From an uncultured Pelagibacteraceae bacterium (GTDB lineage Bacteria; Pseudomonadota; Alphaproteobacteria; Pelagibacterales; Pelagibacteraceae), in the NCBI GenBank assembly GCA_902598125.1, contig CACKAJ010000004.1:62001-126000 (forward strand): a DNA stretch of 64,000 nt, given 5' to 3'. Position 1 is the stretch's first letter; each line of letters opens with the position of its first letter. The translations under genes and the position numbers were made by a program. The notes under the pieces were generated by a model. It saw nothing but the letters and a program-made list of their open reading frames with translations, searched no databases and was not told where the DNA came from. Shown here piece after piece: positions 47,740-63,692 of the stretch.

Positions 47740-48147
47740 ATGAATTCTATTGAAGATAAATGTAAAAAAAAAGGTGTTCGGCTTACAGATCAAAGAAAGA
47801 TTATAGCTGAGGTAATGTCAGAGTCAAAAGATCACCCAGATGTAGATGAACTTCACAAAAGAGTAAGTGAAGTAGATAAAAAAATTAGTATTGCCACAGT
47901 CTATCGAACTGTAAAACTTTTTGAAGAAGCAGGTATTTTAGAAAAACACGAATTTAAAGGTGGTAAGGCAAGATACGAACAGTCTCCAGACGAACATCAT
48001 GATCACTTAATTGATATAAATAGTGGTGAGATAATAGAATTTGTTGATAAAGATATTGAAAAACTGCAAAATGAAGTAGCAAAAAAATTAGGTTATAAAC
48101 TTGTTGATCATAAGTTAGAACTTTATGGATCCAAAATAAAAAAATAG
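47740..48147 (+). CDS. fur: Fur-family transcriptional regulator
   Basis: Fur-family proteins are metal-responsive dimeric repressors. The 135-residue product has the winged helix KKGVRLTDQRKIIAEVM and ATVYRTVKLFEEAGIL, and the metal-binding HHDHLIDINSGEIIEF. It lacks the C-terminal CxxC pairs of zinc-structured Fur, like alphaproteobacterial Fur/Mur, which can respond to iron or manganese. It is distinct from the Irr-type paralogue at 62774. It lies upstream of miaB in an operon. Confidence 0.9.
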   Translation: MNSIEDKCKKKGVRLTDQRKIIAEVMSESKDHPDVDELHKRVSEVDKKISIATVYRTVKLFEEAGILEKHEFKGGKARYEQSPDEHHDHLIDINSGEIIEFVDKDIEKLQNEVAKKLGYKLVDHKLELYGSKIKK

Positions 48148-60978: not shown

Positions 60979-62186
60979 ATTTTCTCAAAAATTAAAGTTG
61001 CGTTGGTACCACCGAATCCAAAGCTATTTGACATCACAGTATTAAGTGTAACTTCCTTTTCAGTTTTTGTTACTATTGGAAATTTTTTAGCCTCATCATC
61101 CATTTCATTTATGTTTGCTGAGCCAGTTATAAAGTTGTTTTTCATCATAATTAGACAATAAATTGCTTCATGAACTGATGCAGCTCCCAACGGATGCCCG
61201 GATAAAGACTTAGTCGAACTAATTTTAGGAATATTCTCTCCAAATGTTTTTTTAACGGCATTTAATTCTGTAATATCTCCTACTGGAGTAGACGTCCCAT
61301 GGGTATTTATGTAATCAATCTTATTTTTTGATGTAGCTATGGCCATTTGCATACATCTTACAGCCCCTTCTCCCGAAGGCGCTACCATGTCGTATCCATC
61401 AGACGTTGCACCATAACCTGTAAGCTCTGCATAAATTTTAGCTCCCCTAGCTTTTGCGTGGTCATATTCCTCTAGAACTAAAACACCAGCACCACCGGCA
61501 ATTACAAATCCGTCTCTTGTTTTGTCGTAAGCTCTGGATGCAGTTTCGGGCTTATCGTTATATTTAGAAGATAAAGCTGTCATCGCATCGAACATCGCAG
61601 TCATAGCCCAATGGATTTCTTCACTACCACCTGCGAAAACAATTTTTTGTTTTCCCATTTGAATTAGTTCCATTGCGTTTCCGATACAGTGACCACTTGT
61701 TGCACAAGCAGAACTCATTGTGTAATTAGTACCTTTAATCTTAAATGGAACTGCCAAAGTAGCAGAGGCTGTGCTACCCATGGTTCTAGGCACAATGAAC
61801 GGCCCCATTAATTTAGGTGTTTTTGCTCTAGTTTTATCTGCAGCTAAGATTACATTTTCAATTGATGGTCCACCGGAACCCATTATAATTCCAGTTTTAA
61901 TGTTACTTACTTCTTTTTCTTCTAGTCCAGAATCCTTAATAGCTTCTTTCATAGCAATATAATTGTATGCTGAGCCAGAGCCCATAAATCTAATTGTTTT
62001 CCTGTCTACAAAATCAGAAAGTTTAATATTTGGCTTTCCATGTATATGACTTTTAAGATTATGTTCTTTGTATTCCTCTGCGTATGATATTCCTGATTTA
62101 GTATTTTGTAAGGATTGATGAACTTCCTCTTGATTGTTGCCAAGACAAGAAACAATACCTAAGCCTGTAATTACAACTCTTTTCAT
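60975..62186 (-). CDS. fabB: Beta-ketoacyl-ACP synthase FabB
   Basis: FabB elongates acyl-ACPs and is needed for unsaturated fatty acids. The 403-residue condensing enzyme has the nucleophile Cys in [14 protein letters not shown] and the two histidines in [12 protein letters not shown] and [18 protein letters not shown]. It is coupled to fabA (4-bp overlap), which forms the cis-unsaturated 10-carbon intermediate FabB uses. This supports FabB rather than FabF. Confidence 0.96.
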
Positions 62187-62686
62187 GATTTAAATAGTCC
62201 AACTTTTAAATTTTCAGCACGATAAATTATTTTACCATCTGCACTTAAGATTCCATTTGCCAAACCAACTGTAGTACCCTCTTTTTTAAGAATTCTTTTC
62301 ATGTTGATCTCATATGTTGCCATTTTTACTTTCTTAAGTACCTCTCCTGTAAATTTTACAGAGTTTACACCTAATGCTCTCCCTTTTCCAGGTTCACCCG
62401 TCCATCCTAGAAAAAAGCCAACTAGCTGCCACATCGCATCTAGGCCTAGACAACCCGGCATAACAGGATCACCCTGAAAATGACAATCAAAAAACCATAA
62501 ATTGTCCTTAATATCAAGCTCTGCTTCAATGATACCTTTTTTAAATTCTCCACTTTTATTATCGATTTTAGTAATTCTGTCGAACATCAACATAGGAGGG
62601 AGGGGAAGTTTAGCATTCCCTTCTCCAAACAACTCACCTTTACCACAAGCTATTAATTCATCATATGTGAAACTATTTTTTTGCAT
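62183..62686 (-). CDS. fabA: 3-hydroxydecanoyl-ACP dehydratase/isomerase FabA
   Basis: FabA dehydrates 3-hydroxyacyl-ACP and isomerises trans-2- to cis-3-decenoyl-ACP, the branch point to unsaturated fatty acids. The 167-residue protein has [14 protein letters not shown], the catalytic His in [23 protein letters not shown] and the [11 protein letters not shown] strand. It is the first gene of fabA-fabB-fabI and is divergent from irr; an Irr-like palindrome lies between them. Confidence 0.97.
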
Positions 62687-62736
62687 ATTTAAAAAATACT
62701 TTTACTTGATTTATGAAATTAATTATATATATATAG

Positions 62737-62753
62737 TTTAGAACGATTATAAA
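62737..62753. promoter_or_regulatory. Irr-box-like palindrome between fabA and irr
   Basis: TTTAGAACGATTATAAA: the left half-site TTTAGAA is intact and the right half differs from TTCTAAA by one base. It lies 51 bp upstream of the fabA start and 21 bp upstream of irr. Its reverse-complement relative at 63203-63219 differs at just one of 17 bases. It suits autoregulation by Irr. Confidence 0.6.
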
Positions 62754-62773
62754 TTATAAAAAAATTAAGTAAA

Positions 62774-63202
62774 ATGGACAAAAAAAAAGATTTGGCAAGC
62801 AAATTAAGAACTTCTGGTTTAAGGCCTACAAAACAGAGAATTAAGCTAGCTGAATTCTTGTTTAATAGAGAAAAAACTTTTCACTTCACTGTAGAAAATT
62901 TAGATAAGGCTATAAACAAAAAAAATTCAGAGGATAAAATTGCTTTAGCGACTATTTATAATACGGTGCATGCATTTAAAAAAGCAGGACATTTAAAAGA
63001 AATTTTAATTAAAGAAGGTAAAAATTATTTTGATACCAATACTACTTCGCACCATCATTTTTACGATGAGATCAATAATGAATTAACTGATATCGAAAAT
63101 AATAAAATTGAACTAAAAAAATTCCCTACTCCACCTAAAGGAAAATCCATCAAAGATGTTAATGTAATAATTAACATTGATAATGATAATCAAAAGCACT
63201 AG
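62774..63202 (+). CDS. irr: Irr-type iron-responsive regulator (Fur family)
   Basis: The 142-residue protein is a Fur-family regulator of the Irr branch: SGLRPTKQRIKLAEFLF (helix-turn-helix) and ATIYNTVHAFKKAGHL, followed by NTTSHHHFYDE, whose triple His binds metal or haem in Irr. In Rhizobiales Irr is stable under low iron and degraded via haem; an N-terminal GCPW haem motif is not seen here. The position beside fabA matches Irr in other alphaproteobacteria. Irr-box-like sites flank it, and rubrerythrin follows. Confidence 0.88.
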   Translation: MDKKKDLASKLRTSGLRPTKQRIKLAEFLFNREKTFHFTVENLDKAINKKNSEDKIALATIYNTVHAFKKAGHLKEILIKEGKNYFDTNTTSHHHFYDEINNELTDIENNKIELKKFPTPPKGKSIKDVNVIINIDNDNQKH

Positions 63203-63219
63203 TTTATAATCATTCTAAA
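63203..63219. promoter_or_regulatory. Irr-box-like palindrome upstream of rubrerythrin (distal)
   Basis: TTTATAATCATTCTAAA starts the base after the irr stop. Its reverse complement TTTAGAATGATTATAAA differs from the fabA-irr site by only one base. It lies just upstream of a TTGACT at 63224-63229, where binding could control the rubrerythrin promoter. Confidence 0.6.
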
Positions 63220-63223
63220 GTAC

Positions 63224-63251
63224 TTGACTTCAAGTTTAGAATCATTATATC
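63224..63251 (+). promoter_or_regulatory. Candidate rubrerythrin promoter with overlapping second Irr-like site
   Basis: TTGACT (63224-63229), 16 bases, then TATATC (63246-63251) resembles a sigma-70 promoter. A second Irr-like element TTTAGAATCATTATATC (63235-63251) lies inside its spacer and -10 region, 32 bp centre-to-centre from the distal site. A strong Shine-Dalgarno AAAGGAG (63264-63270) precedes the rubrerythrin ATG. Confidence 0.5.
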
Positions 63252-63275
63252 TTACTTATTAACAAAGGAGTAAAC

Positions 63276-63692
63276 ATGGCACTTAAAGGATCGAAAACAG
63301 AAGAAAATTTAAAAGCAGCTTTTGCCGGAGAAAGTCAAGCTAACCGAAGATATCTTTATTTCGCTCAAAAAGCGGACGTAGAAGGTTACAATGATGTTGC
63401 ATCAGTATTTAGATCAACAGCAGAAGGTGAGACAGGTCACGCTCATGGTCACTTAGAATATTTAGAGGAAGTAGGTGATCCAGCAACTGGTAAACCAATC
63501 GGTGAAACAAAAGCAAATTTAGCTTCAGCTGTTGCGGGAGAGACGCATGAGTATACAGATATGTATCCTGGTATGGCAAAGACAGCTAGAGACGAAGGTT
63601 TTGAAGAAATAGCAGACTGGTTTGAAACGCTTGCTAAAGCAGAAAAATCACATGCTGGAAAATTTCAAAAAACTTTAGAGTCAATTAAGTAA
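63276..63692 (+). CDS. Rubrerythrin (diiron peroxidase) without rubredoxin domain
   Basis: Rubrerythrins reduce hydrogen peroxide at a non-haem diiron centre. The 138-residue four-helix protein has the iron-ligand motifs EENLKAAFAGESQANRRY, STAEGETGHAHGHLEYL, AVAGETHEYTDMY and AKAEKSHAGKF. The C-terminal rubredoxin FeCys4 domain of classical rubrerythrins is missing, so electrons would come from a partner, perhaps the Fe-S protein encoded next. Irr-like sites and a strong SD indicate iron-controlled high expression. Confidence 0.93.
   Translation: MALKGSKTEENLKAAFAGESQANRRYLYFAQKADVEGYNDVASVFRSTAEGETGHAHGHLEYLEEVGDPATGKPIGETKANLASAVAGETHEYTDMYPGMAKTARDEGFEEIADWFETLAKAEKSHAGKFQKTLESIK

Follow-up and report, generated by a model that had tools for sequence, protein, structure and literature searches.

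Predicted Irr operators lie beside irr and an interchangeable peroxidase gene in SAR11 bacteria

Fur-family boxes share a common 7-1-7 plan, and the consensus sequence of the ICE is TTTAGAA-N3-TTCTAAA. In Rhizobiales and Rhodobacter, Irr is a Fur-superfamily regulator with an HxH motif, and ICE-type operators are located near or over the transcription start (mbfA, bfr, ccpA). Irr targets in these groups include the rubrerythrin-like MbfA and cytochrome c peroxidase (PMC3413700, PMC4902296), and the sign of regulation is said to depend on ICE position (PMC7762939). Irr of B. japonicum is degraded upon H2O2 exposure (PMC4902296); in R. sphaeroides, an irr mutant had greater H2O2 resistance, and expression of mbfA, an Irr-bound gene, increased about 9-fold with H2O2 and also rose weakly under iron limitation (PMC3413700). 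The R. sphaeroides katE promoter was not bound by Irr, and the effect of Irr there was called indirect (PMC3413700); this result speaks against a direct link between Irr and catalase in Rhodobacter. PerR (Bacillus; PerRA in Leptospira) is an autoregulated Fur-family repressor of peroxide defence. Leptospira PerRA lacks CxxC, its upstream sequences were described as similar to Irr boxes, and catalases and peroxidases are named as examples of effector genes common to Irr and PerR (PMC8638967). In the OxyR-katG system, a regulator is likewise linked to katG for peroxide defence, but OxyR is an unrelated LysR-type activator.

SAR11 bacteria, which rank among the ocean's most abundant bacteria (PMC12636525), are exposed to photochemically made peroxide. 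In the literature surveyed, with subscription journals mostly outside it, we found no account of how SAR11 control peroxide defence, and passages of four SAR11 papers (PMC2864753, PMC5069961, PMC11366302, PMC12636525) deal with gene presence or expression and do not describe the operators considered here. We analysed a 64,000-nucleotide stretch of DNA (the window) from a genome of 1.02 Mb and about 88% completeness. Judged by Irr, its nearest named relatives are uncultured Pelagibacteraceae, and the genome is most likely that of a SAR11 bacterium, in agreement with an earlier note on this DNA that had suggested a streamlined marine genome. The minus-strand genes fabI, fabB, and fabA are followed, in this order, by plus-strand irr and rubrerythrin (rbr). 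The features of the locus, together with a second Fur-family protein of the window, are as follows.

47740-48147: second Fur-family protein (best model Fur, below the cut-off)
62183..62686, minus strand: fabA, divergent neighbour of irr (TIGR01749, 263.1 bits)
62706..62735, plus strand: inferred irr promoter (-35 TTGATT at 62706-62711; -10 TATATA at about 62728-62735)
62737..62753, plus strand: predicted operator 1, TTTAGAACGATTATAAA, adjoining the presumed irr -10 on its 3' side
62774..63202, plus strand: irr, encoding a 142-aa IrrA-type regulator of the Fur superfamily (PF01475, 66.4 bits)
63203..63219, minus strand: predicted operator 2, TTTAGAATGATTATAAA (TTTATAATCATTCTAAA on the plus strand), starting directly after the irr stop codon and 5' of the rbr -35
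63224..63251, plus strand: inferred rubrerythrin promoter (-35 TTGACT at 63224-63229; 16-base spacer; -10 TATATC at 63246-63251)
63235..63251, plus strand: predicted operator 3, TTTAGAATCATTATATC, covering part of the spacer and the -10 of the inferred rbr promoter
63276..63692, plus strand: rubrerythrin (rbr), 138 aa, predicted peroxide-reducing diiron protein (PF02915, 105 bits; NCBIfam RuberyRbr, 136.4 bits, under the cut-off of 200)

Regulation by Irr is already known; the SAR11 variation is the swapped peroxidase and the altered half-site. Whereas Irr in Rhizobiales and Rhodobacter has the targets named above, convincing SAR11 sites occur at irr itself and at one linked peroxidase gene, and this target is swapped among katG, rbr, and peroxiredoxin. 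The SAR11 half-site TTATAAA, which is -10-like in most katG promoters, and the absence of cysteine from the window protein are further differences.

The earlier note had pointed out three related palindromes, with the first two differing at one base in 17, and we confirmed both statements from the sequence. With one of them reverse complemented, sites 1 and 2 are identical except at 1 of 17 bases. Both agree with the ICE at 13 of its 14 fixed bases; site 3, with 11 of 14, is a weaker copy of the same sequence. None of the three is a perfect palindrome, as one ICE-like half (TTTAGAA) is paired with TTATAAA or TTATATC. The motif is not a pure ICE, and one half resembles a PerR box. Within the window, the ICE has 2 matches at ≤1 mismatch compared with 0.29 expected (3 of 100 shuffles reach as many), and TTTAGAANNATTATAAA has 9 matches at ≤2 mismatches on both strands compared with 4.68 expected (4 of 100 shuffles reach as many). 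On these window statistics alone, the signal of the three sites is weak and hardly above chance. It is instead their placement and conservation that make the sites convincing.

We compared three sets of irr loci: 28 from the same genus, 21 from another family of the order, and 77 from named SAR11. The named set was taken from the best 80 of 579 confirmed stretches, with L155 (irr not parsed) and L191 and L192 (not SAR11) dropped; because only these 80 were kept, the 77 loci represent close relatives and are no random sample, and some loci may be shared between the named and unnamed sets. In the same genus, the gene in the slot downstream of irr was rbr in two loci, those of the window's genome and of G034, and katG in the other 26, and an operator with ≤1 mismatch was present in the gap between irr and the slot gene in 28/28. 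In the other family, the slot gene was rbr in 19 loci, katG in 1, and neither in 1; the operator was present in the gap in 19/21 loci at ≤1 mismatch and in 20/21 at ≤2. Among the 77 named loci (best 80 of 579), the slot gene encoded a peroxide-scavenging enzyme in every case (katG 50, rbr 26, peroxiredoxin 1; labels based on sequence patterns, with representative proteins checked against Pfam and NCBIfam), and TTTAGAAYNATTMTAAA occurred between irr and the slot gene in 76/77 at ≤2 mismatches and 70/77 at ≤1. At ≤1 mismatch, dinucleotide-shuffled intergenic DNA (20 rounds) yielded on average 0.00, 0.00, and 0.05 loci for the same-genus, other-family, and named sets, respectively, and 551 kb of flanking sequence, excluding 150 bp before and 250 bp after irr, contained 1 site.

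An operator 5' of irr, corresponding to operator 1, is less constant than the one between irr and the slot gene; at ≤2 mismatches, it was found in 22/28 same-genus, 1/21 other-family, and 65/77 named loci (best 80 of 579). Conservation in relatives had been set as a check in the earlier note, and the comparison supports its Irr-type gene and its ICE-like sites at the irr and rubrerythrin promoters; autoregulation of irr and control of a peroxide-detoxifying protein are probable. The 21-bp motif (≤2 mismatches) occurred in 28/28 same-genus genomes with irr and in 0/9 without a strong irr match. Within a 61-genome set, 48 of the 49 irr-containing genomes have katG or rbr next to irr; in the 49th (G050), katG is located away from irr, with a 1-mismatch site about 50 bp upstream. 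Because irr and katG or rbr are linked, this co-occurrence of irr, motif, and peroxidase gene partly reflects a single locus in incomplete genomes.

The position of the operator relative to inferred promoters also recurs. The block ACTTGATTT ... TATAATAT or TATATAT is repeated 5' of irr in many SAR11 loci, and the operator comes immediately after a TATAAT- or TATATA-like -10 in many irr promoters. We examined 48 katG promoters with a plus-strand site, using script-classified katG loci (L134 was missed), spacers of 15-18 only, and the best hexamer for each. In 37/48, the operator's right half TATAAA lies 15-17 bp 3' of a hexamer that agrees with TTGACA at five or more of the six positions, and in 26 of these 37 the TTGACA hexamer is exact; the remaining 11/48 do not fit an overlap with the -10. 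The right half of the operator thus looks like a -10 box in most katG promoters. In 28/29 SAR11 rbr loci, a TTCTAA half abuts TTGAC, which is the position of operator 2. A site equivalent to operator 3 is present in several, not all, SAR11 rbr loci (e.g., L130, L148, L149, and L163; L148, titled Ca. Pelagibacter ubique SCGC AAA795-D22, carries rbr with sites), and in many rbr loci a second site falls within the spacer/-10 or farther 3'. Positions after or over the -10 would suit a repressor; a site abutting the -35 could also suit activation.

The enzyme next to this operator differs among genomes. katG was found in 32/61 genomes, rbr in 22/61, both together in 0/61, and neither in 7. The hypergeometric value for this exclusion, 2.3e-6, overstates it because the genomes are incomplete and related, and absence of irr, katG, or rbr in a genome may reflect incompleteness. 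On a FabA-FabB-Irr tree, built by a quick method from 86 rows of which eight had fewer than half of their columns filled, the minimum number of slot-gene changes is 9; judged by its well-supported branches, the rbr label must have changed at least 6 times and the katG label at least 4 times. It appears that the operator stayed while the enzyme in the slot was replaced repeatedly, and comparison among relatives establishes this pattern alongside the predicted operator, its position, its conservation, and the peroxidase theme. Sites also occur at peroxiredoxin genes. In the other family, a 1-Cys peroxiredoxin gene unlinked to irr has a site in 5/5 full-length cases from close relatives; this site lies in a gap shared with a divergently transcribed gene, which it could serve instead. 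A second peroxiredoxin of that family has a site in 3/8 close orthologues, and 5/8 are without one. Peroxidases are a clearer common theme of the operator-bearing genes than iron. In L274 and L276, a peroxiredoxin gene with an ICE-like site is directly 3' of a gene for a putative iron-binding ABC transporter protein (labelled by eye).

Nine same-genus genomes have no strong irr match, and seven of these keep a weak Fur-type match. In two of the nine, G002 and G023 (L228 and L229), katG is divergent from an OxyR-like LysR gene, with no site at ≤1 mismatch; the best model for this gene is OxyR (222.8 bits, cut-off 329). At E ≤1e-40, the OxyR-like gene was identified in 2/61 genomes, in both cases beside katG and without irr. 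An exchange of regulator is possible in G002 and G023. In G004, katG is beside fabA, no irr was found, and a 1-mismatch site is present. Incompleteness and linkage could account for part of the irr-less pattern.

At the level of the class, 190 Alphaproteobacteria genomes were sampled and 117 matched. Loci were obtained for the best 30 (one being the window's own) and supplemented with L191 and L192, giving 31 other loci, of which 30 were parsed with gene labels from short sequence patterns. An rbr-like gene is located 3' of irr in 25/30 of these parsed loci (best 30 of 117 plus L191 and L192), and the gap between the two genes contains an ICE in 18/25 at ≤2 mismatches and 23/25 at ≤3, compared with 0.05 and 0.1 in shuffles. 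The ICE in this gap is perfect in three loci (L242, L257, and L258); the 0-mismatch ICE TTTAGAAYNATTCTAAA occurs in 7/21 other-family loci. Because an ICE lies between irr and an rbr-like gene elsewhere in Alphaproteobacteria, the irr-ICE-rbr layout seems ancestral and older than SAR11. The swap to katG and the -10-like half-site would then be the SAR11 variation.

Among all NCBIfam models, the best for the window Irr protein is IrrA (146.3 bits), at a score slightly under the curated cut-off of 150. Scores were 130 bits for FeRespRegIrr (cut-off 170) and 56.5 bits for the best PerR model (cut-off 200), so that the protein fits Irr far better than PerR, and the PF01475 Fur-superfamily domain was recognized well above its cut-off of 23.1 bits. 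The protein contains 0 cysteines and therefore has neither a Cys-Pro haem regulatory motif nor a zinc CxxC. The Cys-Pro motif belongs to the B. japonicum type; it is absent from some Irr proteins and does not define the whole family. In an alignment of eight sequences (the window protein and seven relatives), H37, D87, H93, H95, and D106 are invariant, as is the HxH/HHH haem-binding cluster H93-H94-H95. The first five residues align with H37, D85, H91, H93, and D104 of B. subtilis PerR, which are the PerR iron ligands; all five are present in B. japonicum Irr, where H63, the counterpart of PerR H37, is oxidised (PMC4700492). These residues fit a peroxide-sensitive site, yet they do not separate PerR from Irr because B. 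japonicum Irr has all five. The window protein thus shares the five metal ligands with PerR but lacks its structural zinc cysteines, and its metal and peroxide sensing is putative.

Taken together, the locus is likely to encode an Irr-type repressor that acts on both its own gene and the neighbouring peroxidase gene, with derepression proposed to come from H2O2 (or from haem plus oxygen). The Irr-type Fur-family protein would bind operators of 17-21 bp (core TTTAGAAYNATTATAAA, extended AGTTTAGAATNATTATAAACT), one at the promoter of irr itself and a further one or two at the promoter of the neighbouring peroxide-scavenging gene, which is rubrerythrin here and katG in most same-genus relatives. 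Bound Irr is predicted to cover the -10 or the neighbouring region and to block RNA polymerase, and inactivation of Irr by H2O2 (or haem plus oxygen) would switch on the peroxidase gene and irr together. This would resemble PerR as an autoregulated repressor of peroxide defence. We infer the binding, the repression, and the peroxide signal through a PerR-like site from the comparisons above. If correct, SAR11 would have a very small, testable regulon in which control stays with one regulator as the controlled enzyme is exchanged, and the locus would offer a natural comparison of Irr and PerR sensing. A more far-reaching proposal is tentative and on balance rather unlikely: SAR11 Irr may be a dedicated peroxide switch, i.e., a cysteine-free PerR-like H2O2 sensor in the place of OxyR, with its detectable regulon shrunk to itself and one interchangeable peroxidase, and with a half-site merged with the -10 to form a portable promoter cassette in which katG, rubrerythrin, or peroxiredoxin was exchanged many times.

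The signal is what separates the likely mechanism from canonical Irr regulation, in which a haem/iron-status regulator represses the diiron protein or haem enzyme at low iron and peroxide is secondary; the operator architecture is the same for both. We consider canonical regulation a credible, though not the favoured, possibility. It agrees with the description of Irr as haem-sensing with an HXH motif (PMC7762939), with the invariant HHH motif in the eight aligned sequences, and with the ICE between irr and an rbr-like gene in other Alphaproteobacteria; moreover, katG and rbr are both iron-costly, since one encodes a haem enzyme and the other an iron enzyme. However, the operator-bearing genes include two for peroxiredoxins, which are cysteine-based and iron-free, and the cysteine-free window Irr lacks the Cys-Pro haem regulatory motif. 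In addition, iron limitation raised the rbr mRNA level of Ca. P. ubique 1.57-fold (PMC2864753), opposite to the canonical polarity of repression at low iron, with the caveats that the HTCC1062 promoter is outside the loci compared here and that the Irr-bound mbfA of R. sphaeroides likewise rises weakly at low iron (PMC3413700). During stationary phase under sulfur limitation, the mRNA of Ca. P. ubique rbr dropped to 0.17 and its protein increased to 2.24 (PMC5069961); these data do not decide the question of the signal.

The same rise under iron limitation (PMC2864753) would be expected if rbr were a Fur target, and the sites could be boxes of the second Fur-family protein (47740-48147) and not Irr sites. 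A Fur homologue is present, the 7-1-7 plan is common to Fur-family boxes, and loci of the other family have a Fur-box-like TGATAATNATTATCA just 5' of the ICE (19/21 at 0-1 mismatch). Where both occur, however, the Fur-box-like and ICE-like sites are distinct, and the TGATAATNATTATCA-like box is found in only 1/79 loci of the window's family. Furthermore, 7/9 irr-less same-genus genomes keep a weak Fur-type match, yet the 21-bp motif is found in 0/9, a point weakened by the linkage of motif and irr; we regard Fur boxes as improbable. Sites 2 and 3 are mutually inverted, and the sequence at 63196-63260 folds at -11.8 kcal/mol (z -3.36; 0/200 shuffles as stable), as would be expected if the two formed an RNA hairpin, attenuator, or terminator after irr and not operators. 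This is very improbable, given that no T run follows, that the sequence recurs as site 1, upstream of irr, and that many katG loci are without such a pair (at least two sites at ≤2 mismatches in 17/50; best 80 of 579 loci). Chance AT-rich matches combined with general conservation among close relatives would account for the weak window statistics, the lack of a genome-wide excess, and some conserved near-matches at unrelated genes. Such an explanation is barely tenable against 76/77 named loci (best 80 of 579; ≤2 mismatches) compared with the single site (≤1 mismatch) in the flanks, the retention of the site before different downstream genes with shifting spacers, and its presence in other Alphaproteobacteria.

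Beyond the Irr-type repression of a linked peroxidase gene favoured here, the earlier note had proposed checking whether sites exceed chance frequency across the genome and fall upstream of iron genes; neither was supported in the window's genome. At ≤3 mismatches, we detected 208 forward and 194 reverse matches compared with 241 and 245 in a reversed control, i.e., no excess. Outside the irr locus, there were 33 places at ≤2 mismatches: 30 inside ORFs, 1 over the end of ald, and 2 intergenic, near transporter-type genes that are not evidently iron genes. Exact matches numbered three, namely sites 1 and 2 and G000:C2:80255; the last was set aside, as 16/17 bases are in the 3' end of ald and irr-less G020 has a match at the same place. 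Near-matches in G046, G004 (a second site), and several other genomes were rejected as lying inside coding sequence.

Both intergenic places have counterparts in other genomes. A TTTAGAATTATTTTAAA-like site (L004, G000:C4:23687-23703; L277-L284) is conserved in the window's genome and eight relatives, about 30 bp after a dehydrogenase gene and some 65 bp ahead of a gene for a TRAP transporter binding protein, which is not peroxide-related. This site may be a terminator or an additional target of Irr. In two genomes (L106, G000:C2:173877; L285, G033), a near-match TTTAAAATAATTCTAGA / ...CTAAA is upstream of a transporter-type binding-protein gene, and the L106 near-match is between this transporter-type gene and another gene.

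The suggestion in the earlier note that fatty-acid synthesis might also be controlled, through fabA, was not supported. Site 1 is directly after the presumed irr -10, some relatives that share the fabA-irr arrangement have no operator 1, and the sole other-family locus with a site 5' of irr (1/21) is that of G038, where fabA lies elsewhere. In G038, a 0-mismatch ICE (L213, G038:C1:43696-43712) is about 200 bp upstream of this fabA, which does not adjoin irr, and is possibly a relic of an earlier irr-rbr locus. Most of the other-family loci L061-L078, in which operator 1 is absent, have a AATGTATT...AATACATT inverted repeat in the fabA-irr gap. Just after the irr stop codon in L061-L078 and L037, the Fur-box-like TGATAATNATTATCA is next to the ICE, and rbr in this family may be under dual control by Fur and Irr, adding iron control.
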